DNA of 64,000 nt from a virus: IMG/VR virus record IMGVR_UViG_3300033999_000083, positions 1 through 64,000 of that record; one strand, 5' to 3'. The notes beneath the pieces were generated by a model, which was not told the origin of the DNA, searched no databases, and saw only the letters and a program-made list of their open reading frames with translations. This document shows positions 15,385 to 64,000 of the stretch, one piece after another. Numbering within the stretch: position 1 is the first letter of the stretch; every line of letters begins with the position of its first letter. A program made the position numbers and the translations under genes.

Positions 15385-15457
15385 TGCGAGGTGGACTGGA
15401 GAGGTTCCAGCTCAGTCCCATAAGCTGAATGACGTAGGTTCGAGTCCTACCCTCGCA
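15385..15457 (+). tRNA. tRNA-Met (CAT)
   Basis: Acceptor TGCGAGG/CCTCGCA (7 bp), D stem CTGG/CCAG, anticodon stem TCAGT/GCTGA around loop CCCATAA with anticodon CAT, T arm GTAGG-TTCGAGT-CCTAC. CCA is not encoded. Two extra bases precede the D stem. The sequence resembles Met tRNAs; whether initiator or elongator is unclear. Confidence 0.8.
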
Positions 15458-15498
15458 ACTACTTGTTTTATAAAGATGCTAAACTAAAATAATTAAAT

Positions 15499-16620: not shown

Positions 16621-16696
16621 ACTGTGGTATCCACTCTGCCTGATAAGCAGTAGAAATGGTAATCGGTTACATGTGGGTTCAAGTCCCACCCACAGT
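16621..16696 (+). tRNA. tRNA-like gene, Ile (GAT) anticodon loop, no normal D arm
   Basis: Acceptor ACTGTGG/CCACAGT (7 bp) and T arm GTGGG-TTCAAGT-CCCAC are perfect. CTGC-CTGATAA-GCAG has exactly the anticodon loop of tRNA-Ile(GAT). Only 7 nt (TATCCAC) lie between acceptor and anticodon arms, so a normal D arm is missing; instead a GTAA-TCGG-TTAC hairpin sits in the variable region. Either an unusual tRNA, a degenerate one or a tRNA mimic. Confidence 0.6.
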
Positions 16697-16732
16697 ACTC
16701 TATAGATTTATAAACTAATAGATTTTAAAATT

Positions 16733-18380: not shown

Positions 18381-20131
18381 TTCAAAGATTCACACTCAAA
18401 TTAAATCTTACGAACAAAGACAAAAAGAAAAACTTGTAGAACTTGGTCAATCAAATAAAAGCTATAAAAATATTTTAGCTTATTTGGAGGCTGAAATCAA
18501 GCAATCTACTAAAATTTCAACATTTAACTACAAAATTAAATGTTTTAAAGATGATGGAGTATATCAACTAAATAGAGCTATAGAAGAAATCTATGGTTCT
18601 GTAAGTTTTAAGAAAGATGAAAGTCCTTCAGGAGGATCTGACTCTATTCAAACTATAGATATAACTTTAGCATCTGGAGAAAGAATTAAAACTTTGTTTG
18701 GTAAGATAGCTTTACCAGAAGCAGGAGAAGGAGCCTACATTGATATATCTTATGATAGTGCGAATGATACTTTGCATGTTGTAGGCAACTGCGAATTCAG
18801 ATTTTCAAGTATGATTGATGAGATTGTTAAAAGAGCAGAAAAACTCTTGAAAACTGATTCAATCTATAAGGATCAAGCTATTGAGTTAGATGAATCTTTT
18901 TCACCAAGAATAATGGATTTAACTTCATATACTAAAGAGTTTGTTGTTCTTAGTAGCCAAACTAAGTATGAATTACAACCATTAATGAATAGGATATTTG
19001 ATCCTGCAAAATGTAAGGCAAAAGGTATTCCACTTAAACTGGGAGTGCTCTTAGATGGCCCATACGGTTGGTAGTTTAATATTATATATAAATATTTAAC
19101 TTAAACAGCCCTTATGCGAGGTAACTCGTATTAAGAATTCTAGTGAATTGCTGGAAAATCCTTAGAGCTATATAGACTACAACATAGATAGTAATATCAA
19201 GTGTGAATGTTTAAAAACTATATAGATTGGAAAATCAGCAGCGAAGCTTCTTATAAATAAGAAGAACGTTCAACGACTATCCCTGAAATGGGAGTACACT
19301 CAAATGAGTGGAAGTACTAGACATCCTTATAGGATGAAGATATAGTCTGGTCTTTATAGAAATATAAAGAAGTTCATAAGAGAACTGCATAAGAGTAATG
19401 AACTTATGTGAACAACAACGACAGGAAAAACTTTATTAGCATTTAAACTAGCAGCAGATGCTATTAAAAACAATTGGAGTTTTATTTATCTTAAAGAACC
19501 TAGTTATTTAGCAAGAACTTTAAGATTAGCAAAAACCCTTGATCAAAATGGCAATGGTGTAATAATTTTCTTAGAGGATCTTGATCAAATAACTAGAGGA
19601 GAAAGAGATGCTGCTATGCAGGACATCTTAAATACCTTAGATGGTGGAGATACTAAGAGTATGAATGTAATCTCAATATTTACTACTAATCATCTAGAAC
19701 TAATTGAACCAACATTCTTAAGAGGAAAAAGAATTGGTTCTCTTATCTCACTTGGTTTCTTGGATAAAGAAACTGCTCTGGAATATATCACCACAACTTT
19801 TGAACGTGATGGTTACAGAGTAGATAATAATGGGATGGATAAAGTATGTAAACTTATTGAAGAAAGTAACATAGCTCCTGCTTTTATGGCAGAAATATGT
19901 GAATCTGTTAAATCTCATGTACTATATGAAGATGATGTAATTATCAAACCAGAGTATATTGAGAATGCAGTAAAATCTTATTTAAGGCAAGTTAATATTG
20001 CTAAGAAGAAAGATATGTCTGAAACAGATGAATCTCGCCTTGCTGATTCTTTAAGAAAGATTATTAATAAAGATTTAATGAAATTACTTGAAGAACAGAA
20101 ACAATTTATTGAAGAACGTTTTGGAGAATGA
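18361..20131 (+). CDS. AAA+ ATPase, split by a group I intron
   Basis: Joining 18361-19068 to 19421-20131 gives a 472-residue protein in frame. The junction falls inside Walker A: DGPYG from exon 1 and TGKT from exon 2 make GPYGTGKT. Walker B is VIIFLEDLDQ, sensor 1 ISIFTTNH, arginine finger region RGKR, then a C-terminal helical lid. This is the FtsH/BCS1-like AAA class. A role in remodelling or proteolysis partner work is inference. The stop is TGA, two codons before TAG. Confidence 0.8.
19069..19420 (+). ncRNA. Group I intron without ORF, in AAA+ gene
   Basis: 352 nt. Contains the four conserved group I elements in order: P (AATTGCTGGAAAA near 19143), Q (AATCAGCAGC near 19226), R (GTTCAACGACTA near 19268) and S (AAGATATAGTCTG near 19337). 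It starts after a U of the upstream exon and ends in G, and removal restores Walker A exactly. No endonuclease gene, so it depends on others for mobility or has lost its own. Confidence 0.85.
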
Positions 20132-26018: not shown

Positions 26019-29000
26019 ATATTTAATAGAATATGGTTTAGAAAATAAAGATAAAATAATTGAAATTATATACTGTAATCATTATCTAGATGCAATAGAT
26101 ATAGCTCAATCTAGGGCTATAAAGCTTTTAGATGATATTAAAGAATATAAAAACTTAAAAGAAGAAATCTATAAAACTTACAATTATAATCCTTTTACAC
26201 CGTATGCCTATTATTTATCAACTATTTTAAGTCTTATAACATACAGTGTGGAAAAAATAGACAAAGATCAATCTATAATATATTTAGTATCTAATGAAGC
26301 TAGTTTATTTGATAGTAAATTTAAAACTATATCTTTAGATAGGGCTATACAATTACTCAGTGAGTGTGACATTCTAGGATTAGATTCTGAAACTGAAGGG
26401 TTAGATCCCTATACAAAGGCTCTATTGTTACTTCAGATTGGTAATAAAGAATTTCAAGTGGTATTTGATATAGCTAGCTTTGGTGGTATAATACCTAAGA
26501 AGTTAGTTAATTTTTTAAATAACTATCCAAATACTTTTATATTACAGAATGCTAAATTTGATTTAAAATTCTTATTTAAACAAGGGGTAATACTTAAAAG
26601 AGTATTTGATACTATGCTCTGTGAAATAATTCTTACTAATGGATTAGAATATGAAGGTAGGGATTTAAAGAGTTTGGCAAAGAAATATTGTAATGTAGAA
26701 TTAGATAAATCTGTTAGAGGGGAAATTATAAGTAATGGTTTATCTAGTGCTGTAATAGAATATGGAGCTAATGATGTAAAGTATCTTCCAGAAATAAGAG
26801 AGAAACAATTAATAGAAGTTAATAAATACAATCTTAAAGGTGCAGTAGATTTAGATAATACGTTTGTGGTAGTCTTAGCTTATACTGAATATTGCGGTAT
26901 AAAGTTAGATTATGAAAAATGGAAGATAAAAGTATTAAAAAATATAGAGACTGCTGAGAAATATAAAAAAGAATTAGAAGATTATATTTATAACGATAAA
27001 AAATATGAATACTTTTCTGGAATGGTAGATATGTTCACAGGAAAGCAGGAATGTATTATCAATTGGGATTCTCCAAAACAAGTTACTAAACTTCTTAAAG
27101 AGTATGGTGTTAATACTGAAATAGTAATTAAAGGAGAAAAGAAAGAATCTATAGATTCTAAAGTTTTAGAACCTCAACAAGATCAATTTCCTATTATAAA
27201 GCCATATCTTAAATATAAAGAAATGCAAAAAGAAGTTAGTACTTATGGATATAACTGGAAAAACTATATAAATCCTATTACTGGCAGAATACATACTTCT
27301 TTTACCCAAATACTTAACACAGGGCGTATGTCATCTGGAAATAAGTATGAAAACCTTCCCAATATTCAAAACCTACCTCGAGGAGAAGATACTAGGTCTT
27401 GTTTTATAAGTGAACCAGGAAATTTACTAATTGATGCAGACTATGCAAGCCAAGAACAAATAGTCTTAGCTAACTTCTCTAAAGAACCTAATCTTTTAGA
27501 ATTTTATCATAGAGGTTTTCAAGATATGCACAGCTATGTAGCTTTTTTAATGTATAAAGACATTAGGAAATGCACTGTAGAAGAATTAACTCCTGAAAAA
27601 CTTTCATACGTTAAAGAAGAATACTCAGAGAAAAGAAGAATTGCTAAATCTGCTGGATTTGCGATGAACAAACCATTTTATTTAATTTAGGTGTAACTGA
27701 ACTTAAAAATAAAAAATTTGCCATTAACTACTAATTTATGACAAAACTTTTTATTATATTTGTGTGTAATTAAAATACATAAATATGGATAAAAATAAAA
27801 TAAATGAACTATTAGAAGATTATTCTTCTGGAATGTCTTTAAAAGACATTAAAAGTAAATACCAGACTAGTTCTGATACAATTTATAAATTAGTAGATGC
27901 TAATGGCATAAATAGAAAGAATTATAAAAATTTAGATAAATTTTATGACTTAAATAATCCTGAAACACAATATTGGCTAGGATATATATGTGCAGATGGA
28001 AATATTCAATACGATATTGTTAAAAGAATATATAAAGTATCTTTGTTTAGTAAGGAAGAAGAACCTATCAACAGATTTAAAGAGTATTTTGGAAATATGG
28101 TATGTATTCATAGAAGACCTACAGGTATCATTGAAGCATACATAAATTCTAAAAAATTATGTGAATACTTTATAAATGTTCTAAACATACTTCCTAATAA
28201 ATCTTTAATTCTAGATCCTAATTTAGAATTTACAACAAATTTTATATTAGGATATTTTGATGGAGACGGTTCTATAATGAATAGTTCTGAAACTAGAATT
28301 AGATATGAAACTAAAATAACAAGTGGTAGTAAAACCTTTATCAATAAAATATGTAAAATATTAGATAATAAGGGTATCTACTATATACTTAGAGAAAAAA
28401 GCAGTGCTTTTGACATTAGTATTGAGAGAAAAGAAGAGTCTAAAAAATTTTATAATTGAATTTATTCTGAAAAAGTTTGGTGTTTATCACGAAAATTAAA
28501 TAACTTTGTCGCTCTCTTTGGAAACTTAGAGATAAATAATCGGGAGAATTGCGGGGAAATTAATGGACAATCCGCAGCCGAACTATCTGAATAGCATAAA
28601 AGTAAGATAGGAGGTTCAACGACTAACAATTGAGGAGCTAATCCAATAATATTGACACGAGTACCCGACACCTAAGGAGAAATCTATGGTGAAGATATAG
28701 TCTGAGCTATATAGTAATATATAGAAGTAAGTATAAAGAGACTTACGATAACATAACTGAAATTATGGAGGAAATGGTAGTACTATAGCTAAAAATTGTA
28801 ACATAAGCAAAGCAGAAGGAGATTTTGTATATAATTCATATTTTGAAGCCTTCCCTAAACTCAAAGATTATTTTGATCTAATGTTTAGAAAATCAGCTTA
28901 TTCTGGATATATAGAGTATAATCATGTAACTAAAAGAAAATATTTCTTTAATAAAGAAACCAATGATTATTACAGATATAAAGATATAGTAGAAAAGAAT

Positions 29001-30397
29001 CTACTTTATGAAGAAGACAACCCAAGAGATGTTATATCTAAATATAATAGAGCTAAAAATGAGATACAACGCCTATCTCAAAACTATCCTATAATTGAAT
29101 GGGACTTTATACAGTAATGTATATCGAAAATTGGGTGAATTGCTGGAAACCTAAGTATTATTAAATATAAGGCAATCAGCAGCCAAGCTAGTGAATATCT
29201 TAATGTAACTAGAAGGTTCAGAGACTAGAGGGTGAGTAGATAAACAATAACCTCTCAAAAAGCGCCCGACAACCAATAAATTGGTTGATAATATAGTCCA
29301 ATCTACATCTAAAGATGTAGCAAGATTTTTTAAAAATTATACATTTTATGTGTTGATAATTTTATATCTTTGTATTATTAATAATTTTAAATACAAAGAA
29401 AATGGAAAAAGTAAAAACATGTAAAATTTGTAATTTGAGTGAACCAGAGGTAGAATTTTATAAGAATTCTGGTTCAAAATGTAAAAAATGTAAAAATAGA
29501 GAAGACAGCAGGAGAAGGGCTGAGAAAGCTGGTAGAGAGTATATTCCTAGAGAAAAAGTAGAAGTACCCGAAGAATATAAACTCTGTACTAAGTGTAAAA
29601 GAGTATTACCTATAGATGATTTTTATGTATTAGGGGCAACTAATAAAGACGGTACTAATAGAATATATTCAAGATGTAAAGAATGTGAAAGACAAATTGT
29701 CTTAGAGCATCCTAACAGAAAAGAATATATTGAGAAATCTAATAAAAATAAGTTAGAAAAATCTCAAGAAGACCCTGATTATAGAGATTATCTAAATGAA
29801 ATAAACAAAAAATATTATCATAGTGAAAAAGGTATAATTGCACACATGCTTTATGAGGCTAAGAAAAGAGCTGCTAAGAAGAATTTAGAGTTTGATCTTA
29901 CAGAAGAAGATATTATATTACCTACACACTGTCCTATTTTAGAAACAGAGTTTGTAAAAGGTGATAGTTCTGATTATTCTATGACATATTCTTTAGATAG
30001 AATAGATAACTCTAAGGGATATGTTAAAGGAAATGTAAGAGTAATTTCTATGTTAGCTAACTCAATGAAGAACTCAGCTACACCAGAACAACTAGAAGCA
30101 TTCTCTAGAAACATTTTAAACTACATTAAAAAATCTTAAATGATTCAAGGCTCTTCAGCAGATATAACTAAGTATGCAGGAATACTATTTATGAGAGAGA
30201 TTCTTAAAAGAGATTGGTTTATGAAAGTAAAAATAGTAAATTTTGTTCATGATGAGATACTAGTTGAAGCTCCTAAAGAGATAGCTGAAGAAGTTAAAGA
30301 TGTTTTAGTAAGTTGCATGGAAGAAGCTGGAAAGCCTTTCTGTAAGATATTACCTTTACATGCTGAAGCATTAATAGGAGATCACTGGGTTCATTAA
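26011..30397 (+). CDS. polA: DNA polymerase family A, split by two group I introns
   Basis: Exons 26011-27665, 28760-29090 and 30143-30397 join to 746 residues in frame. DEDDy exonuclease: LGLDSETEG (about 125), FILQNAKFDLKFL, YGANDVKYL. Polymerase: motif A DADYASQEQ (about 476), O helix KRRIAKSAGFAI|NYGGNG at the first junction, NYP|IQGSSADI at the second, motif C NFVHDEI (about 697). No 5' nuclease domain. The splice sites lie in the two most invariant stretches of the enzyme, as expected for homing introns. Confidence 0.92.
27755..27762 (+). promoter_or_regulatory. Promoter -7 element before intronic endonuclease
   Basis: TATATTTG, an exact TAnnTTTG, lies 22 nt before the ATG of the endonuclease gene. 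No TTTG at ideal distance. It would let the endonuclease be made from its own transcript, not from the pre-mRNA. Confidence 0.45.
27785..28594 (+). CDS. LAGLIDADG homing endonuclease with in-frame TGA
   Basis: N-terminal helix-turn-helix (KDIKSKYQTSSDTIYKLVDANGI), then two LAGLIDADG helices, YWLGYICADGN and FILGYFDGDGS. At 28457-28459 a TGA interrupts a typical C-terminus: ...KKFYN(W)IYSEKVWCLSRKLNNF fits the usual FL.WLY......L.RK...F ending of the family. Read as Trp, the frame continues to TAG at 28592-28594, running into the intron core. If TGA is a stop, the protein is 224 residues and lacks this final helix. Confidence 0.75.
28476..28508 (+). promoter_or_regulatory. Bacteroidota-type promoter inside intron
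   Basis: TTTG (28476-28479), 21-nt spacer, TAACTTTG (28501-28508), a full consensus match. It overlaps the 3' end of the endonuclease frame and would transcribe the intron core and polymerase exon 2. It may be chance. Confidence 0.4.
29365..29372 (+). promoter_or_regulatory. Promoter -7 element before intronic endonuclease
   Basis: TATCTTTG matches TAnnTTTG, 29 nt before the ATG of the second intronic endonuclease. The -33 element is poor. Parallel to the element before the first one. Confidence 0.45.
29402..30139 (+). CDS. HNH/His-Me finger homing endonuclease with zinc ribbons
   Basis: 245 residues. N-terminal CKICNLSE...CKKCK and CTKCK...CKECE knuckles (residues about 6-35 and 60-97), then a nuclease part: HCPILETEF and YSLDRIDNSKGYVKGNVRVIS, the DRID...GY..GNV phage HNH signature, then MLANSMKNSAT. 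It ends 3 nt before the intron end, so coding and splice site nearly meet. Confidence 0.8.
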   Translation: MEKVKTCKICNLSEPEVEFYKNSGSKCKKCKNREDSRRRAEKAGREYIPREKVEVPEEYKLCTKCKRVLPIDDFYVLGATNKDGTNRIYSRCKECERQIVLEHPNRKEYIEKSNKNKLEKSQEDPDYRDYLNEINKKYYHSEKGIIAHMLYEAKKRAAKKNLEFDLTEEDIILPTHCPILETEFVKGDSSDYSMTYSLDRIDNSKGYVKGNVRVISMLANSMKNSATPEQLEAFSRNILNYIKKS

Positions 30398-43130: not shown

Positions 43131-44474
43131 ATGAAAAAAAAGAAAGATTTACGAGAAGTTGAATATAATGCCTCACAGGATGAAGCATTTGACCAAAGGT
43201 CTGTAGGAGAACCAGTTAGAGACGAAGACGGAAAGATAAATGGCTATAGATTTAAGATATATGTTAGAGATTCTAGACCGTTAGAAGGATTTCTTACTAA
43301 CGAAGAAATGGAACTAATATATAGAGAGTACTCTTCTGATGGAGCTAATCTTACTCAGAGGAATATATCTAGACATTTTCCATATACAGTATCTGAATTT
43401 AAAAAGATACTACGTGCTTTTAATGTCACTAAGTCTGTAGTACCATTTCCTCCTCATGTTCTAGAATCTAGAACAACCGAAGAGTTACTAGAATTACATA
43501 TAAAGCAGAAAGAGGTAGATTTTCTTAAGAAGTATGAACAAGATAAAGGAGATTTATATAAGAAAAAATATAATGAACTTTTATTAGAACATCAAAAACT
43601 TAAAGAAGATTTTGAATCTGCAAAATATATTTCCGAAGACATAAATAAAGATAAGTTTAATACTATCAAATTAGATAGCTCTAATGAAACTATTATAGTG
43701 TATTTAAGTGATATGCATATTGGAGCTTATGTGTCTGAAGAAGGAGTATATGATAATAAGTATGATGAGGAAGAAGTTCATAGAAGGTTAAATATAATCC
43801 TAAACAAAATAAATAGTTATAATGGTACATTTAAAAATATAATTATTTTAAATTTAGGAGATGCAATTGATGGATATAATGCACAAACCTCAAGACCTGA
43901 TTCAACTCACATTCTTCCACAAAATATGTCTAATAAAGAACAAGGACAAGTTTTATTAAGACAAATGAGTGGTTTCTTTACAAATTTAAAAGATAATAAT
44001 CCAAATTCTGATATATTCTTTGTATCTGTTGGTCATTCAAATCATGGTGGAGATTTTGAACATAGTATTATTACAGCATTAGCTATAATGCTAGAGCATG
44101 AAGGTATTAGTACATATGTAGCGGTTAGGCCTATAGATCACTTTATTATTGGTGATAAAACTGTTATATTCTTACATGGTAAAGATAATATGGACCAATT
44201 TAAGAATTTTCCCCTTGTACTTAATGACAGAACAGAGTTATACTTTGATGAATATATAAGATATCATAGTTTAGGAGGCGATATTACTGTAGTAAAAGGT
44301 GATTTACATCATAGTGCTACAACGTATGGAAGAGCTTTTAAATACAAATCTGTAAGTAGCTTATTTGGTTCTAGTAATTGGATACATGCTAATTTCGGAT
44401 TTGCTAAATGGGGATGTGACTTTACCCTCATAGATAAAAACGGAGATACATTAGACGGCATAATAAAAGAATGA
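43131..44474 (+). CDS. Large metallophosphoesterase with DNA-binding-like N-terminus
   Basis: 447 residues. The first 130 carry a helix-turn-helix-like stretch (LTQRNISRHFPYTVSEFKKILRAF), then a coiled-coil linker (KKEVDFLKKYEQDK...), then calcineurin motifs YLSDMHIGAYV, ILNLGDAIDG, SVGHSNHGG, FLHGKD and VKGDLHHS. Ends in TGA. The next gene follows in the same frame 3 bp on, so readthrough as Trp would make a 704-residue fusion. Confidence 0.75.
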   Translation: MKKKKDLREVEYNASQDEAFDQRSVGEPVRDEDGKINGYRFKIYVRDSRPLEGFLTNEEMELIYREYSSDGANLTQRNISRHFPYTVSEFKKILRAFNVTKSVVPFPPHVLESRTTEELLELHIKQKEVDFLKKYEQDKGDLYKKKYNELLLEHQKLKEDFESAKYISEDINKDKFNTIKLDSSNETIIVYLSDMHIGAYVSEEGVYDNKYDEEEVHRRLNIILNKINSYNGTFKNIIILNLGDAIDGYNAQTSRPDSTHILPQNMSNKEQGQVLLRQMSGFFTNLKDNNPNSDIFFVSVGHSNHGGDFEHSIITALAIMLEHEGISTYVAVRPIDHFIIGDKTVIFLHGKDNMDQFKNFPLVLNDRTELYFDEYIRYHSLGGDITVVKGDLHHSATTYGRAFKYKSVSSLFGSSNWIHANFGFAKWGCDFTLIDKNGDTLDGIIKE

Positions 44475-45800: not shown

Positions 45801-48800
45801 TGGAAGATTATTTTAAACATGATGAACTAGCCTATGATGTTTGGAAAGACAAGTATAGACAAGAAGGAGAAAGTTTAGAACAATTTTTTGAAAGACTGGA
45901 AAAAGGGTTTGATAGATCTTTTAGTTATGATAGAAATCTATCAGAGTATGGAAAAAAGAGGCTAAACAATCCATATAGAGAAACCTTACATACTTTATTT
46001 AAAGATTTTAAATATATAATTCCTGGAGGCTCTGTACTATATGGAATAGGTACTGATAAGCCTGTAAGCCTTAGTAATTGCTATGTTCTTAGCACTGAAG
46101 ATTCTATATCAGAAATCTTTGATACAGCTAAATATATGGCTAATATCTATAAAAGAAGAGGAGGAGTTGGAGTAGACATTTCAGTTTTAAGACCTAAAGG
46201 CGCTTCTGTTAATAATGCTGCTAAAACTACTACTGGGATTATACCATTTATGGATTTATTTAGTAATGTAACCAATACAATTGGGCAGAGTGGAAGACGT
46301 AAAACAGATGAAACATTTTTTAATATTGAAAATATACAGAGTAAATATTATGGACGAACAATTTTTAATGGAATGCTTAGAGAAAGGACTAAGTACTAGA
46401 CAAATAGAAGCTCTTCCTGGAGTTAATATAAAGAGAAGTGCTATAAGTTATTGAATTCATAAATATGGTTTAGAAAATGATATGAAATATAAAAAACCTA
46501 TTTACAATGAAAATTACTTTAGTACTATTGACACTAAGGAAAAAGCTTATATTTTAGGATACACTTTAGCAGATGGGTATATTAGTAATTCTGATTTAGT
46601 TTATGGATGTGCTATTGCAGATAAAGAAATACTAGACTTTATAGCCTCAGAAATAGGAGGACAAGTAAGAACTTATACCAAGTTAAATAGAGAATCTAGA
46701 ACATTTCCTAATGCAAAATTGAGTATAGGTAATAGAAAAATAGTAGAAGATATAAATAGGTTATGTAATTCTAAAGAGAATAAAACATTTCCTAGAATAA
46801 GAAAAGATTTACAACCATATATGCTATTAGGTTTTTTTGATGGAGATGGATGTTTAACATTCGGACATAGAAAAGATCGTAATAGATTATGGTATAAAAT
46901 ATGTTTTACAGGTTCTTATAAACTATTATATGCTATACAAAAATTACTTGAAAAGAATAAAGTTGTATCAAGCCTTCACCCTAAAGGTGATGAAAATTGT
47001 TATGTCCTAGAAATGTCATCGAAAGATTCAGTATTAAGAATTTTAAAAGCCATGTATGGTAAAGAAGATTTAATTGTACTGAAAAGAAAATATAATAAAT
47101 ACAATGCGCTGCGTCTTGAATTGGGAGAATTCGGTGAAACTACTATAAATAGTACAATACCGAGCCGAGCTTCAGACCATTCTGAAGAAGGTGTAGAGAC
47201 TACTGGAGGGAAAGAGGATTCCCTTAATAACCAGCTAGAGAACCCAAGTCTTACTATTAAGTAAGATAAGATATAGTCCAAATAAAGGGGCGCATTAATG
47301 ATAACCCTAGATATCAGACATCCTGATTCTCCAGATTTTGCTATTTGTAAAAGGGATTTAACTAAAATAACTGGTGCTAATATATCTTTAAAAGTATCTA
47401 AAGATTTTATATATGCTGTAGAAGGTAATAAAGATTACCTATTAAGATGGCCTGTAGATATAAATATAGATGATATAGATTTAAGTAAATTAGAATATGA
47501 TAAACTATATGAAGTATCTACTAAGAGATATATCAAGAAAATAAAAGCTAAAGAATTATGGGATACTATAATAGAATCTAATTGGCAGTCGGCTGAACCA
47601 GGAATACTTTTCTGGGATAACATTGTAGATTATGATTTAGCTAGTGTATATCCAGAGTATAAACCTATATCAACAAATCCTTGCGGTAGATTTTGCTGCA
47701 AGTAAAAAAATTCGAGAATTGCTGGAAACTTGGGATAGTTATACAACTACAACAAAACTAGAAATGGTATTTGTGAATGTTTGAAAATAGTATAACGTTA
47801 AGTAATCAGCAGCCGAGCTCCTAAGTTATTTATAATATGGAGAAGGTTCACAGACTATGTACGAATCAAAATTAATTTATGAAAACATTTAAAGAAAGGG
47901 CAGAAGAATTAGCCCTATCATGTACAAGAGTTAAAAATAATAATGTTTATGAAACTCTTGCAAAAGAATTTGGAATATGTAAAAGGACAGCTGGAGATAG
48001 GTTTAAGAGCCTATTTGGAATGCCTGTTAGTGAGTTTATTTCTAATAATCTTATTCCTTCAGAAGAAAAGGTAATTGATTGTTTAGTTCAATCAGAAACT
48101 TATAAAGAGTTTTATGATTTAACTGGAATAAATGATAGTGTAAGATTAGCTAATACATTAAAAAAATATTTTGGTACATCAGATTACTATAAATTAAAAG
48201 TATTAGCTTTATCTAAAATACCAAGTAAGAAATATAATCCAACTCCTGAAGATAATGAAGCTATTTTAGTTTCTCAAATGTTAGGAGATGGTTCTATAGA
48301 AAGAGAAAATTCTTTTAAAATAGAACATGGTTATAAACAGTATGAATACTTAAAATTTAAGGTCTCATTATTTAATAAAGCTTACCCTCAAACAAATGGT
48401 TTAGAGAAAATAAGAAAGAGAATATCTAAAGATAATTATGAATCTTATGTTTATAGAACTGGAGAGGTTTTACATAAACAATTATCAAGATTACTACATT
48501 TATCTAAAAAAGATTTAGTAAGTAAATTAACACCTTTTGGAGTTATGCTTTATTTTCTGGATGATGGATATTTTTCTATAAGTAAGGGTAAATATATTAC
48601 TTGGGAATTAGGTTTTAGCACTATAAATACAGAGTTACAAGAAGCTTTGTTTGAGTACTTTAAAACGTATGGATATACTTTTAACATCACTCCTAAAGCT
48701 ATAATCTTACAAAGTAAACCCACTATAATTAAGTTCATAAAAGATTTCTTAGAACCTTTTAAAGATATTATTCCAAAAAGTATGTATTATAAATTTAATT

Positions 48801-53319: not shown

Positions 53320-53546
53320 ATATAGAATGGAATTCATATTTAGCTTGTGCTTATGCAGAAGGTTTCTGTGAGGGTGAAGATGCTACAATAGAAGAACAAA
53401 TGGAAGCTTGGGCTTATATAATTAAGAATAAGCTTTATAGAAATTTACAGGGATTCTATGGTAGAATTTCAAGTGAATTGATAAATAATGGATATATATC
53501 TATAGATGGAAAAATAAATTGGGATAAAGTATATAATAGTGAATAA
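53313..53546 (+). CDS. Small protein, paralogue pair E, copy 1
   Basis: 77 residues. YLACAYAEGFCEGED...EQMEAWAYIIKNKLYRNLQGFYGRISSELINNGYISIDGKI matches the gene at 53777 (YLACTCVES...IQLDAWAYIIRNKLY.....W......FIRTGLISEDGVI). Function unknown. Confidence 0.6.
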   Translation: MVNIEWNSYLACAYAEGFCEGEDATIEEQMEAWAYIIKNKLYRNLQGFYGRISSELINNGYISIDGKINWDKVYNSE

Positions 53547-53548
53547 AT

Positions 53549-53773
53549 ATGATGATGAAAAAAATAGAAATAAGTAAAGAGCTAGAGAATTTACTTGATA
53601 AAGCCAATCTATTAACTAATAGCTGTAGAAACGACATAACTATATTAGAACACATGGATAAAAGCTCAGGAGACTTTGAAAAAAGAATTAGTAGTTTAGA
53701 AAAGAAACTTAATGACTTAAATGCATTAGCTAATTTAATTAATGATATGGTTTATAAAGTTAAAAAACAATAG
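53549..53773 (+). CDS. Small coiled-coil protein
   Basis: 74 residues, Lys/Glu/Leu-rich with heptads. Lies between the two copies of pair E. Function unknown. Confidence 0.5.
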   Translation: MMMKKIEISKELENLLDKANLLTNSCRNDITILEHMDKSSGDFEKRISSLEKKLNDLNALANLINDMVYKVKKQ

Positions 53774-53776
53774 TCT

Positions 53777-54013
53777 ATGGGATTTTATTTGGTATGGACT
53801 CCATATCTAGCTTGCACTTGTGTGGAAAGTGGTACCAAAGATGTAATGATACAATTGGATGCTTGGGCTTATATTATTAGAAACAAATTATATAACAAAA
53901 ACCGTGAAAAATGGTATAATGATATGGCAGAAGCATTTATTAGAACTGGTCTTATATCTGAAGATGGAGTTATAGACTTATATAAAATTAATGAAGCTTT
54001 AAATAATGAGTAA
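53777..54013 (+). CDS. Small protein, paralogue pair E, copy 2
   Basis: 78 residues, homologue of the gene at 53313 with the AWAYIIRNKLY core. Overlaps the next gene by 8 bp. Function unknown. Confidence 0.6.
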   Translation: MGFYLVWTPYLACTCVESGTKDVMIQLDAWAYIIRNKLYNKNREKWYNDMAEAFIRTGLISEDGVIDLYKINEALNNE

Positions 54014-54296
54014 AATAAAGATTAAGGTTATTGAACCAGAGACTATAGAAGTATTCGGGCCAGATGGGTCTTCATATGGTAAATTGAATGAGTTAGAATT
54101 CTTAGATTTAAGATGCCAAATAAAGAAAAATAAACAATCTGGGTTTTATATATATTACAACGGAGAAAAAGTTAAGATAAGAAGAGATGGGTTAATGGAA
54201 AAATATGTTCCAATTTTTGTAGATAGTATATATAAATACAATTATCTATTAGATATACCTAATGAAAGTTTTAAAAATGATACTTTAAATGGATAA
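54006..54296 (+). CDS. Small protein, paralogue of the gene at 5.1 kb
   Basis: 96 residues. IKVIEPETIEVFGPDGSSYGKLNELEFLDLRCQIKKNKQSGFYIYYNGEKVKI has the same pattern as 5142-5393. Function unknown; the two copies belong to different operons. Confidence 0.6.
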   Translation: MSKIKIKVIEPETIEVFGPDGSSYGKLNELEFLDLRCQIKKNKQSGFYIYYNGEKVKIRRDGLMEKYVPIFVDSIYKYNYLLDIPNESFKNDTLNG

Positions 54297-56319: not shown

Positions 56320-56537
56320 GGAGAGATGGCGGAATTGGTTAGACGCATAGAGATGGTAAGATTGGTAGAGACCGTGTTTTGCGACATGGAATAATACATA
56401 AACCCATGTGAGTTAGTGAATTGAAGGCTTTTGTCAAAAACACATAACAAGCATGACTGTTCAATTCAGTCCTAGAAACTGGAAGCTGACCTCCATTTCA
56501 AAATCCAATCATGCAGGTTCAAATCCTGCTCTCTCCC
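56320..56537 (+). tRNA. Nested tRNA-like element, possibly intron-split tRNA
   Basis: The outer ends form a good tRNA frame: acceptor GGAGAGA/TCTCTCC, D arm GCG...GGTT...CGC of Leu type and T arm GCAGG-TTCAAAT-CCTGC. Between them lie about 165 nt instead of 30. Inside is a second, imperfect copy of the 5' half (GAGATGGTAAGATTGGTAGAGACC), a long stem (GTGTTTTGCGACA/TGTCAAAAACAC) and a second perfect T arm (GACTG-TTCAATT-CAGTC). Counting back from the outer T arm with standard spacing puts TCA at 56498-56500, but a matching anticodon stem is not contiguous. Intron-split, nested or degenerate; not resolved. Confidence 0.45.
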
Positions 56538-56595
56538 CAATTAAAATAGTTAAAAACTATTTTGTTTCCATTTTATTTTTGTTTGTTTGTTAGAA

Positions 56596-56642: not shown

Positions 56643-56682
56643 AAGCCGAGTACAGAAATTACTGTATTCGGCTTATTTTTTT
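56643..56682. terminator. Bidirectional intrinsic terminator
   Basis: AAGCCGAGTACAG/CTGTATTCGGCTT, 13 bp with one G-T pair, loop AAATTA, flanked by A-runs on the left and T-runs on the right, so it works for both strands. It lies exactly between the convergent early and late blocks and touches the late stop codon. Confidence 0.88.
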
Positions 56683-59600
56683 TATCTTAACATTTCAAAC
56701 ATACCTATAGATTGTGCAGCTGCTTTACCCAAAGTCTTGTCACCTTGAATAACATCTCCTACATTTTGCGTGGCTCCTAAACTCCAACTTAATCATGCTG
56801 GTTCGGAACTTAATGCTCCAAAAGTATTATTTCATAAATTATACTCATTAAGTACTTTTGTATTAACAGCATCCATAAAGGCTACAGTTTCACCACTAAA
56901 AGTACCTCTTTCAGTAGAATCTTTCATTGAGTCGTATATAGCTCTCATAATACCTAATATCATAAAGATCAAAACAGAATCTCCTATAGCATAAAGAGTT
57001 CTATTCACTCTTCATTTATTCTTTTTAAGATCATCCCAGTTTAATCTAACCAAATCATTTATTGTATAAAAGACAGAATAAAATATACCTTCTTGTGGAG
57101 TACCATTTCAAGCCATAAGTTTTTCATCTGTTTCATATTCTACAATTTCTCTTTTTGGAACACCATACTCATCTAATACTGGATCACCATTTTCATCTAC
57201 AACATCTTTAAGATATAAATGTATTGGTTTACCTTTATCATCGAGTATTAGATTGCCATCAGCATCTTTTTTGACTGCATGTTCAAACTTACCTACAGGA
57301 GATGCATCAGCTGATATTGGTTTACCAAATCAAAATTGCATCTTAGATGGCCAATACTGCATAAATTGAAAGAATGCAATTCCTGCTAACTTATTATTAA
57401 TTTGAGCTTGTGCATCTTTATCATATGCTCCATATACTCTATCAGCCATAGCTTTTATTGAGTTTCTTTCTTTAAGAGTATAAGCTTTAGGAATTAAATC
57501 TTTTTCTGTAAGATGACCTTCTCCTACAATAGCATATTCAGAATTAAATTGTTCTATCATTAAAAGATATAGATTTCTTTGCTCATTGTATAAAGAGTCT
57601 CCAGATTTTTTAGTATAATTGCCATCAGCATCCTTATACTTTTCCCTTTCTGCTAAGTAATAGGAAAATCTTTTATCTTTTCTTGGATCATATACTAAAG
57701 TATTTCCTTTCATAGAATGCGCTTCATAAGAACCATCTTTAATCATTCTAGCTAATAATATGGCTAACCTATTAAAGTAATCTCCACCAGTTGATGTAGC
57801 AAACATTCATCTACCTAATCCCCTTGCCAATCCTAATTTATCATGTTGAACTTTTTCTGGCATGGTTGCTATATCCATATTAGCTATTCTATACTCATTA
57901 TTTAATGCCTCTATTAAATTATGTTCTACAGCTTGTTTTAACCCTACAGTTAATAACTTTTCATAAGCCTTTATCATTTCTTTTTCTCCAAAGTCAGCAT
58001 GTATTCCTGTACCAGCAGTAAGTAGATTTCTTATAGTTCCAACAGTTATTTCTTTTACTAACATAGTTGGTCTAAAAGCTAGCATTGCTATAGTAGAAAA
58101 TTTCTTTTGAAAAGCTAATCCTTGAGCTATATTTTTCTCTTCATCATCCACTAATGGTTTACTAAATACTGCTAGGTTTACCTGGTTAACTATATAGTTT
58201 AGTTGCTTCCTAACCTTTTCATCCATCTTTCCTCCCATTAACTTCATTCACCATACATATGATTCAATAGTTGGGAGTATTATATCAAATATTCTTTTTC
58301 TAGTTTTATAAAAAGCTACCTTATGAGCTATAGTATCAAGATTTAGTTCAAAATAATCTATTTGCTCCCTATCCATCATTCTTGCTCTTGTCTCATCATC
58401 TTGACTTCCAAACACATCATACATTTGAAAAAACCCAAGTCTTTGATGTTCTATATTTTCTACATCAAGTGAGGAGAATTCTCTAGGATCTATGGTGTCT
58501 CTTAGATTATCTTTTACCATATTATATCACTCACCAAACCCAGTTACAAGTCTTTTATATTTAGAGATTTCTTCTCTCCTCATAAGTGGCATTTTAAAAT
58601 AATCTCCAGATTCTATTCTAGCTTTTAGTCATTTATTATTAGTAATGTTCTCTAAGTTAGTTGGATCTATAGAATAAATTTCATTTTCTGGTAATCCAGC
58701 CATGAAACCATTTATATAAAGCAATGTTTGTTTTAAATATTTTCTCTGGTCTTCAGTTAAAGCATTTTCTTCATCAATTATATATGGATTTTTAGCTCTA
58801 AAAGATTTATCAATTTTTCCAGTTTCTTTATCCTTTACAAAAAAGTCAGCATGTATAGATTGAGTTTCCCCTCAAGTCATTTGTTTAAACTTACCATATC
58901 CTAGTTTTCTATAAAGTTCATCAGTTAAAGGTCATTGGTGTTCACTAAATTTATTAAGTTTCTGTCCATTTATAGAGTTGCCATTAGCAACCATCTCATT
59001 TATATTCCTTAAGTCTTTGGATTGAACAAATTCTGGATTAATCCAGGATAACCCACCTATTATACCAAGTATTCTATTACCTTTTTTATCATATTTTCTT
59101 TGATTCTTGTTAAGAATACCTAATCACAGAGACTGAAAATCTCCAGCCTCGATACTATATTCTGTTAAACCTTGAAAATCAACTTCAGGTTTTATACCAG
59201 ATTTAGATAATATAGCTGTTTGTAATAAAGCATATAATACTTCTGTTGGATTTTGAAAATCTAGTTCTTTAGTTGGTTCTACATCTCTATATTCAGGAAA
59301 AGCTATTAGAAATTGATCCCTTGCTTCAATTAATCTTTCTCTTGATATTTCGTCAAACCTATTATTTTGCAGTATAGAAAATATATTTTCAACTTCTTTT
59401 TGTCCTTTACCTGCATAGTTTTTTACATAAGTATTTAGAGTCATTAATGCAAGATCTTCTGTTCCTACTAAATCATTGTCATTAATTTTTATTTTATCTC
59501 CCATACCTACTTCATTCATTCTTCTTCTAAACCAAGTAAGAACAGTTGCAGAAGACCTATATCTACTTTTTCCATTCCTACTATTAAAAACTATTATTTC

Positions 59601-61322
59601 TCCTAACTTATAAGCTCCTTTGGCTAAAAGAACATCTTTATATTCATTTAAGAAATACATAGCTTTTAACATTTCTACCTGGTCATAAGTCATTCCTTTA
59701 ATTCCAGATTCTGCTCATAAGTTATGAACTGTAATATCAAATAAATTTATTATTCCAGTTTTAGTATTTCTCATGACAATTATTCCTAAGGCATCAGCTT
59801 CGTTAATACCTTCTAAAACTTGCCAATCATCATTTAAATATTCTGTTAATACGTGGTCTAAAGCTATATCTTTTTTACTTGGATTTTTTCCTAATTTTAT
59901 ACTAGAACCTGTAGCAATAGATGATATTACAGCATTTTTTACTACACTAACACCTCTACCTTCTAATGATTTTACATGATTTACATATAAAGCCATCTTT
60001 TCTCTAAACTTTGCTTCTGCTTCCTCAGCAGTTTGATGTTCAGTAGTTTCTATTATCATCCCTTCTGGTAATCCATCTATATCTTTAAAACCATTATATT
60101 TTTTAAATACTCCAGTTTTTTCAAATCTTTCTCTAGAGTTTTTCATTAATAACTCTAAATCATTATCTTCCCACTCTGTTTTAACTCTGTAATCTGGAAA
60201 CAATAATTTATTCAAAGAATCTTTAAGTGCTGCTATTTTATTTGGATCATACTCAGGTTTAATTTTTCTAGGAAGTAATATCTCAGCAATAGAAGATATT
60301 TGTCTATACTTTTCTAAACCAGAGACTCCTTGAGTAGTTCTGTTTATTGGAGTTCCAAATTTTAAAGTAGTTACATCACCTAACTTACTAAATTCTATAG
60401 GTATTATATAAAGCCTAGTGTTTTCTACATCTATATGTTGTCCTAATAATTGTCTTTCTAGAGCTAGCTCCCAATCATAAGTAAGAGTTTTAGATTCATC
60501 CCAATCACTAAAAGGATGTTTAGATATTTTCACATCATATATACTAGCCACTCCAGAAGTATTAACAGTTACTATACCTAGTTTAGCTTTTAATTGAACA
60601 TTATTTGCTTTATTAGGTAAAGATACTAAATGAATAGAGCGTAAGGGTTCTCCTTCTAAAGAACGTATTATATTACCAATAATAGACTTTATTCTTTCTT
60701 CTCATATAGATATATCTACATCATTACCAAATATCTCTGGATTCTCTGAATAAAATTTTCTAAAATCTTCTTCAAATTTTCCATTATTTGATAAAATCAT
60801 ATCTACTCATTCATGAAACTTAATACTAAAATTTTTAGTCATTTCTTCTATTCTAATCCTACTTTCTACTTCAGCAAGTGCAGGTATTAAGTCTTTATCA
60901 TCGTATTGTTTTAATACAGGATCTCTCTTTAACATCTCTAAATATTCTGGAGTATAGACTGCACCAGTGTTGTTAGTATACTCTTCTAAATGTGCCTTAA
61001 CAAATTCTAGAATTCTATTTTCTTGTATAAATTCTGGAGCTAACCTACTCTGTCCTTTTAGTGCTGCTATATTTCCAAATATTTCAGCATGAGGTTTAGT
61101 AATAAATTCATACACAGTTTCTACATCTGTAGCTTCATAATAAGATTTAGGAGAATTAGCTTTAAGTATTTCTCTTTTAATACTATCTACCACATCTTCA
61201 GAACTAAATATAGAATTTGAAGCTAAAATACTAGTTTCTTTTAGAAAATCTTCATATACAGAACTTTCTAAATCATATCTTATTAATTCACCATTTTCTT
61301 TTTTATAATAAAAGCATCCCAT
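56682..61322 (-). CDS. Giant late protein, TGA read as Trp (15 times)
   Basis: One frame from ATG (MGCFYYKKENG) to TAA gives 1546 residues if TGA is Trp. The TGAs are at 56795, 56834, 57014, 57110, 57332, 57809, 58250, 58529, 58631, 58874, 58934, 59126, 59717, 60704 and 60809 (first base, minus strand). TGG also occurs. Mostly soluble, with one hydrophobic segment near the C-terminus (SVLIFMILGIM). No polymerase DxDGD motif seen. Its place and size match the giant late proteins of crAss-like phages, some linked to the virion-associated RNA polymerase or ejected proteins; exact role unknown. Start overlaps nothing; the upstream gene stops 2 nt earlier. Confidence 0.8.
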
Positions 61323-61323
61323 A

Positions 61324-64000
61324 TTAATCACATTTTAGTATTATTTTATTTTTAGCCCATTCTCTAAATGAAGCTTCTGAATCTATTAATCTAACATTAT
61401 AGTAAGGAGAAGATATATCACTTTTATAATTAAATATATCTTTTAAAGATGACTTAAACAATTCTTCAGGATTATTTATTGCTCTTTCTATATTTAAACT
61501 AAAATCAGGATTTATTTTTTTAATTACATTATATAACTGTTGAGCTACTATCTCTGCTTTATCTAAAAAATCAGTAATATAATCACCTTGTAAAGCATTA
61601 ACTATAGCTTTAACAAACTGTTCCTCTCTTTCTGAAATATCTTCCTCATTTTCATTTTTTCCTAGTACAGATTCAATTGTTCTTTCGTATGTACTGTAAT
61701 CACTGTATCTGAGTAATGTTAAAAATATATGTAAATTTTCATGAACTAGATCTGACTTAGTACCTTTATTTCCATTTAATAATATAGAAGTTTTTAGTTT
61801 ATCATCTACTACTTCAGTTTTTATTTTAGCAAATTGATTATTTTTAAACTCTTTACTATCATTACTTATATCTACATCTATACTATAATTTCCAAAGTAT
61901 GCTTTCATTTTATCTAATAAATCCTGCATACCAGCAATATTAAGAATTTCATCATGAGATAAGATACCTCCCGTAGCTTTTAACAAAACATTGGTTTTAC
62001 TGTTACCACTTTGTAAGTATAGATTATATATTGCACCATCTGGAGTTGTGTCTTTACCATCTATCTTTATTGGGGTTTGATATAATTGTTTTTTACTAAA
62101 TATTCTTTCTACAGTTATAATATCACCTTTATCATTAGTTCTGTTTGTATGAGCTATAATTTCATTTCCAACATCTTCCATAACTCTGTACATAGTGTCA
62201 GATAAACTTCCATGTTCAGCTATAGTAAAATATACACCTTTCTTTAAAGGATTTATTCTTTCTTTTTCTTCTATCGGTATTTTATTAAAATCAGTAATCT
62301 TTCTAAGATCAGATAAATTTCTTTGATACTTTCTAGAACCATTTAAGTCAGTAACATAAAGTTTAGTATTTTTATCTATAATTTTAAAGAATGTAGCTTT
62401 TACATAATTAGTAATATCTTTATATCCTCTTGGAATATCGGTATATTTATCTATATATCTACCTATATTAGCATAACCAGTTGGAAAAAATACTAAACTA
62501 TTTTCATCTACATCGTTAGGAATAATATATTTCACTTCTACAAGATTAGTTTCTTGTTCTGCAATCCCAATTGGTTTAGGGGTTACTTTTCAATTATTGA
62601 CTCTTAAAATATGCACAGTGTATGGAGATGAGATATCTCTTGGAGTATAAAATTGTATATTAGATATATTGGATATATCTACTGTTTCATATACTTTAGA
62701 GGTGTCTGTAAATATTATACCTTTATTTTTATCTACTATTTTACCATATACTGTAGTTCCATTTAGTTTGCCATAAAAATAATCCCCTTTAGTAGCTTTA
62801 TTAATATCAAAAAATGAAGATAGTGTTCTAGCTGATATACTCGAAGTATTAACGTTATCTATTATTTCTTTTCTTTCATTACTAGTAAACACAGCATTCG
62901 AGTGCATCCATGCTTTACTATCTCTTAATTCTATTCTTGAAATTGGTTTTATGTACCTTTTATTGTCATTACCTACTATTATAAATACATAATCTGGATT
63001 AGAATATACCACAACTGCTTTATTTTTAATAGTAGATGTGGGATCTACTATAATATCATCTTTTGATATAAGATTTACATCACGTATTTCTGTATAAGCA
63101 TTATAATTAAAGTTCTTAAGTACATTAGAATATACTTTATACAATTCTCCTAATTTGGCTGAATTAAAATTCTTTACATCAGAATATGCTTGTTTAATAA
63201 ATTCATCACCAGATTTTACATATAGATATGCAGGATATACACCTACTACAGTACCTATATCTGTTTTATCGCCAATCATTGCATTGTCTTTTATAAACTC
63301 TTGCAAATCGTTTCTAGACAAATACTTAAAATTTCTTCTTAATTCTACAAGATTATCATTAGTTAAAATCTCAGCATCTGGATCATATGGTATTTTAGGA
63401 TTTTCTCTTTTTCTTATAAACAACTCATCTCCTGGTAAATATGCTTTCTTAAAATATTTGTAATTACCTTCCTGATCTTTGTATAAACTAACTATATAGA
63501 CACCATTATTTTTTGGAAATATGTTCTGAATAATATATGGATTAAAATGTTTTTTACCAGTTTCATCTACTCTAGGAACCATTAACAAGTCTTTTCCTAT
63601 GGAAACATTTTGAACTATATATTTATAATCTACGTTGTCTAATTTAATCATTTCAGAAAATAAATCATCCTTAGCTTTTGTATAATCAAATAAATTTATA
63701 GCTTCAGCATAAGACTTTATCTTATCAACATTATATTCACTACTAAATGCTTTTTCCATTTCTAGAAATTGCTGTTGATTTATAATCTCCCTAATTACAT
63801 TGTATCCGTAACTATTTGGGTTTAAATTTTGAAACACACTTTTAGTAGTACTATATAAAGAATTTGTAGAGTCTAGTCTATTAGTGACTAACTTTATTAT
63901 TTCAGAAATTACATTATTATTCTCTTTACTTTCTAATAATTTTTCAAACTTAGAAGGATTAACTGCTTCTTCTGCTATATTATCAAAAAATTCTTTAGAA
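61324..64000 (-). CDS. Giant late protein with zincin-like motif (5' partial)
   Basis: The frame is open from the window edge to TAA, 891 codons seen, if TGA at 62592-62590 is Trp (VNN(W)KVTPKPIG). Near its C-terminus, DLVHENLHIFLTLL is an HExxH zinc-peptidase-like motif, followed about 30 residues on by SEREEQFVKAIV, which could give the third Glu ligand. Such domains occur in giant phage polyvalent proteins. Other parts are beta-rich repeats with no match by eye. Transcribed before the 1546-residue gene. Confidence 0.75.

Follow-up and report, generated by a model that had tools for sequence, protein, structure and literature searches.

Reassignment of the opal stop codon has been described in the Zeta crAss-like phages, where TGA is read as Trp, chiefly in late genes (Yutin et al. 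2021, PMC7886860; PMC12386605). Several opal-recoded genomes were reported without a detectable suppressor tRNA, and host tRNAs or highly divergent tRNAs were named as possible reasons (PMC7886860, PMC12386605). Introns are known from tRNA anticodon loops of bacteria, and the tRNA-fMet intron has an anticodon-specific endonuclease, as cited in PMC3984707. TGA recoding in the late genes of Zeta-type phages is already published; what the species described here appears to add is a decoder tRNA that is itself split by an intron.

The window, a 64,000-nt stretch, is part of a 93,401-bp record (G000, IMGVR_UViG_3300033999_000083). A second contig, G001 (IMGVR_UViG_3300034683_000142), matches it at ~98% identity over most of 60 kb, dropping to 91% in one 6.9-kb stretch, and contributes 35 kb of additional sequence; a third, G002 (IMGVR_UViG_3300033999_000053), aligns with G001 at 97% identity across 33 kb and extends the sequence by another 22.8 kb, such that the three jointly span ~152 kb. 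All contigs, including G002 and L095 introduced below, are metagenome assemblies. The major capsid (MCP) and muzzle proteins belong to Crassvirales families of Pfam, and a 3021-aa late protein carries a DFDVD motif like that of the crAss-like RNA polymerase. A full-length relative of 178 kb, G006, is syntenic throughout and has 28 tRNA matches, CTA and TCA tRNAs among them. Judged by these sequence features, the phage is a Zeta-type crAss-like phage of gut type and at least about 150 kb; the Zeta placement rests on the crAss MCP and muzzle, the giant RNA polymerase (DxDxD), the large genome and the late-limited recoding, together with PMC7886860. Three genetic codes (standard, TAG=Gln and TGA=Trp) are found among MT835470, MT835492 and G006, with MCP identities of ~45–65%.

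Two adjacent late genes lie at the end of the window:

56682–61331, minus strand, late gene; a single frame of 1549 codons under code 4 (1546 counted from the first ATG), terminator TAA
61324–64755 in the full record (window part 61324–64000), minus strand, upstream late gene; 1143 aa, TAA at 61324

The 1549-codon gene contains 15 TGA and 10 TGG codons and not a single internal TAA or TAG, where base composition predicts ~75 TAA and ~35 TAG; the other five reading frames of this region are dense with stops. The TGA codons span positions 56793–60809, in agreement with the breaks in the open reading frame list:

60807–60809, minus strand, TGA, codon 175
60702–60704, minus strand, TGA, codon 210
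59715–59717, minus strand, TGA, codon 539
59124–59126, minus strand, TGA, codon 736
58932–58934, minus strand, TGA, codon 800
58872–58874, minus strand, TGA, codon 820
58629–58631, minus strand, TGA, codon 901
58527–58529, minus strand, TGA, codon 935
58248–58250, minus strand, TGA, codon 1028
57807–57809, minus strand, TGA, codon 1175
57330–57332, minus strand, TGA, codon 1334
57108–57110, minus strand, TGA, codon 1408
57012–57014, minus strand, TGA, codon 1440
56832–56834, minus strand, TGA, codon 1500
56793–56795, minus strand, TGA, codon 1513

The upstream gene has a single in-frame TGA, at 62590–62592. The 1549-codon protein has no match in Pfam, PHROG, NCBIfam or PDB and is not assigned to a family. 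An initial annotation had described two minus-strand frames broken by TGA alone, 15 times and once, and never by TAA or TAG, with TAA ending both genes and TGG used alongside TGA; the code-4 reading agrees on every point, and the two papers cited above do describe TGA-to-Trp recoding with late genes most affected, which that annotation had called established. It had confined the recoding to 56682–64000, and here the recoding stands but its limits were drawn too narrowly. Every large minus-strand gene of the full record between 56.7 and 92.8 kb, two ORFs of 3021 and 3002 codons among them, stays open only if TGA is a sense codon, and the same pattern extends through G001 and G002. Across 42 late ORFs of this block there are 189 TGA versus 153 TGG codons.

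Several comparisons bear on the amino acid inserted at TGA. First, homologues of the 1549-aa protein are encoded in three codes, namely the standard code in MT835470 (no stops, 24 TGG), a TAG code in MT835492 (48 TAG) and a TGA code in G006 (12 TGA), G001 and G006 being the TGA-rich cases. These homologues align through the TGA sites, which argues that the proteins are not truncated there. Second, at 184 aligned sites where a relative shows an unambiguous codon facing a TGA of this species, the residue seen most often is Trp (n=46), then Tyr, Leu, Ile and Phe, and a BLOSUM-based likelihood places Trp ahead of the next-best residue by ~97 log units, although the columns are not independent. Trp is rarer at these sites than at TGG control sites (46 of 184 versus 118 of 227, counts that are likewise not independent), suggesting that TGA sites fall in less conserved columns. 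Third, TGA and TGG exchange for one another: 53 columns have TGG in this species and TGA in a relative, and 24 of the 28 codon changes involving TGA among same-species contigs are to or from TGG.

That TGA might instead specify another amino acid, such as Tyr, Phe, Cys or selenocysteine, is suggested by the frequency of Tyr and Phe opposite TGA and by the default ARAGORN label of SeC for the TCA tRNAs. Given the likelihood margin for Trp, the interchange with TGG within the species, the G73 of the suppressor tRNA described below and the lack of Cys at the TGA columns examined, this reading is extremely improbable. The available sequences thus support a reading of late-gene TGA as Trp, with the same sense meaning as TGG. 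This was the initial annotation's central claim, and it is backed by the homologue alignment, the column residues, the exchange within species and a UCA tRNA with G73. The alignment of giant-protein homologues that it had proposed as a check favours Trp at the TGA columns, but its view that other residues in homologues would speak against Trp was too strict. Many TGA columns hold Tyr, Phe, Leu or Ile in relatives, as is expected for Trp, so a non-Trp residue in a homologue is no refutation.

In the genes on the opposite strand, TGA still functions as a stop:

1158–56009, plus strand, early/middle gene block; TGA terminates 20 of 102 genes (simple calling)
43131–44474, plus strand, early gene for an SbcD-like exonuclease; TGA terminator, followed in frame by the next gene from 44478

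In G006, the homologues of the exonuclease and of the gene following it are ~780 bp apart, indicating that the TGA at 44474 is a real stop. Backup TAA or TAG codons, considered as a possible sign of readthrough, follow 12 of the 20 early TGA stops versus 33 of the 82 other stops, a difference that is not significant (p=0.09). On the early strand, a gene that probably encodes a homing endonuclease (46281–47264, plus strand) contains a single in-frame TGA, and Trp would suit the helix-turn-helix-like segment in which it lies.

These early stops bear on the question of who decodes TGA. Host machinery could do so without any phage suppressor, either through near-cognate tRNA-Trp(CCA) or because the host itself has a code-4 background, and the window record indeed has no intact TCA tRNA. 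However, early genes that still stop at TGA rule out a host that simply uses code 4, and a UCA tRNA occurs at one syntenic place in the relatives and in same-species contigs. Decoding by the host alone is therefore very unlikely, and a phage-encoded suppressor is the preferred reading. Searches of eight records for a phage release factor or TrpRS turned up neither.

Intact TCA tRNAs are present in G004, G006 and G008, which are more distant relatives, in each case upstream of phoH and on the minus strand, and these tRNAs share the anticodon loop CTTCAAA and G73. The G006 tRNA (161242–161337, minus strand, L042) measures 96 nt and its variable arm is long, whereas G004 and G008 carry a short type; the long arm suggests replacement of the suppressor, or a separate origin, at one locus. 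Searches with ARAGORN, Rfam and a relaxed pattern gave no TCA tRNA in the window's full record, which stops short of the phoH/tRNA region, and canonical and relaxed searches gave no intron-free TCA tRNA in G001 or G002. The tRNA of this species was found in two allelic forms:

G002, 53483–54174, minus strand, UCA tRNA carrying a 620-nt insert that separates U34 from C35
L095 (IMGVR_UViG_3300034684_000127), intact intron-free tRNA at the same place; contig 99% identical to G002 over 10.7 kb

In G002, exon 1 ends in GTGGTCTT and exon 2 starts with CAAAACCAC. Joined, the exons give GTGGT CTTCAAA ACCAC within a full cloverleaf with anticodon UCA, G73 and perfect acceptor and anticodon stems. The alignment of L095 with G002 breaks exactly at the intron borders (53521/54142), and the anticodon stem differs by compensatory changes, ATTGT/ACAAT in L095 versus GTGGT/ACCAC in G002, with pairing kept on both sides. 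The features of a suppressor (cloverleaf, UCA, U33, purine 37 and G73) are thus all found, in contigs other than the window record. Default ARAGORN detects the intact L095 allele but misses the split G002 allele, as does Rfam. Near this region, the DUF805b RNA motif occurs twice in G002 (Rfam RF02914; L060, 16981–17016 and 17301–17336, plus strand).

By sequence comparison, the 620-nt insert is a group I intron, predicted to be self-splicing. Its 3' part is 76% identical to a tRNA-Leu(UAA) intron in a 735-kb phage record. The 21 viral loci recovered by a scan with the 3' core include G002 and L174 (see below); most of the others are in tRNA-Leu(UAA), with a single Met(CAU) and a single Gln(UUG), and the 3' core and terminal GTAGTAAG are common to the G002 intron and the phage introns in all three tRNA types. 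Several of the records with this core have Intron_gpI matches above the Rfam cut-off, as do ORF-less relatives in the family. P7 covaries with pairing kept across 17 distinct sequences (GACU/AGUC, GAAU/AUUC and, in the G002 intron, GAGU/ACUC), and P4 reads CGATG/CATCG in the G002 intron versus CGGTG/TACCG in the tRNA-Leu introns (seven sequences). The 5' exon ends in U and the intron in G. An unrelated contig, L174 (IMGVR_UViG_3300001598_000346), provides a second example at the same U34|C35 position:

L174, 7957–8290, plus strand, UCA tRNA split by an ORF-less member of the family, a group I intron of 236 nt

The L174 tRNA has a tRNA-Sec-like shape with a 6-bp D stem, a long variable arm and an odd T loop, and on its contig a homing-endonuclease match spans an in-frame TGA.

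It might be argued that the split tRNA of G002 is a dead gene, in which the suppressor was inactivated by the intron or a degenerate relic of it, leaving decoding to some other factor. The G002 intron gave no Rfam match, its P3 is imperfect by eye, its P1 is not established beyond a 4-bp candidate, and its ORF overlaps the core. The missing Rfam match is probably explained by the ORF breaking the core. Against loss of function, the exons have retained their perfect stems. Full pairing is kept in P4 and P7, both of which covary, the G at the splice site is conserved along with the terminal sequence, and TGA abounds in the late genes of G002. A dead gene is thus unlikely, and the split allele is taken here to be a functional precursor.

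The intron also has features of a mobile element, namely a 174-aa ORF matching PDDEXK_5 (E=8e-11), of the PD-(D/E)XK endonuclease family, and an exact empty-site allele in L095. Among phages and viral contigs, other carriers of the ORF were limited to the same contig, and none of the bacterial genomes searched has the intron 3' end followed by CAAA. The likeliest interpretation is that of a selfish homing element aimed at the conserved anticodon loop, as for bacterial tRNA introns (PMC3984707). That the intron is more than a passenger, with splicing of the suppressor precursor timing or limiting UGA decoding and the ribozyme gating the switch from the standard to the late code, is a speculative proposal and rather doubtful.

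Three additional group I introns are present in the window:

19086–19369, plus strand, group I intron splitting an AAA+ ATPase gene near the Walker A motif
28487–28724, plus strand, group I intron
29081–29320, plus strand, group I intron

Further tRNA-like elements occur on the same strand:

15385–15459, plus strand, CAT-anticodon tRNA left untyped by ARAGORN; position 33 is C instead of U
16621–16697, plus strand, tRNA hit in Rfam with a GAT anticodon loop; the D arm is absent and a long stretch separates the anticodon from the T arm
56320–56540, plus strand, tRNA-Leu-like element with a 7-bp acceptor, Leu-type D arm and T arm, an insert of ~150 nt replacing the anticodon arm

The flanks of the 56320–56540 element are 99% identical between G000 and G001, and the insert is only ~55% identical. 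The insert contains a covarying hairpin (ACATGG/CCATGT versus ACGTGG/CCACGT) and, in both contigs, a 13-codon frame from ATG to TAA with its stop within the hairpin loop, a layout that may be said to resemble a small tmRNA. The element was considered as a suppressor owing to TTTCAAA in its 3' half; no exon join yields a good UCA tRNA, and it was rejected because the real decoder is located elsewhere.

Taken together, it is very likely that this is a Zeta-type crAss-like phage whose early genes use the standard code and whose late genes read UGA as Trp by means of a UCA tRNA, which in its species exists as intact and intron-split alleles. The UCA tRNA would be charged by the host TrpRS, consistent with its G73 and with no phage TrpRS having been found, and would outcompete host RF2 at UGA during late-gene expression. 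In intron-bearing phages the precursor would have to self-splice before UGA could be read, and the intron may be mobile, homing into intron-free suppressor alleles at their conserved anticodon loop. Insertion in the anticodon makes a predicted catalytic RNA a step on the way to the code switch. In the open-access literature searched, no earlier report of a group I intron in a phage stop-codon suppressor tRNA was found.

Similar to the published Zeta crAss-like phages (PMC7886860; Lera/Echekvirus, PMC12386605), this phage has a crAss MCP and muzzle, a large genome, giant late genes of RNA polymerase type (DFDVD), late TGA=Trp, TCA as well as CTA tRNAs (seen in G006, the full-length relative) and code switching among close relatives. 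However, unlike the published Zeta cases with no detectable suppressor, the suppressor of one species was found here, split by a group I intron. Since default ARAGORN and Rfam miss the split tRNA, such splitting is one way to explain recoded crAss-like phages for which no suppressor was reported; within a single species the intact allele is found and the split one missed by the default search, so intron-aware searches can revisit those cases. The intron shares with the bacterial tRNA-anticodon group I introns of tRNA-Leu(UAA) and tRNA-fMet, as portrayed in PMC3984707, the insertion in the anticodon loop, the group I core and the PD-(D/E)XK family, but its host gene is a phage stop-codon suppressor tRNA and the recoding anticodon itself is split U|CA, unlike the introns covered there. 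As in the Lak megaphages (PMC6784885), phage tRNAs carry introns that are present or absent between related genomes; the available part of that paper terms the Lak introns enigmatic and neither calls them group I nor places them in a suppressor tRNA. The theta ribozymes (PMC10879173) similarly tie a ribozyme to the maturation of phage suppressor tRNAs, but they are HDV-like and self-cleave at the tRNA 3' end, whereas the putative ribozyme here is an intron within the anticodon.
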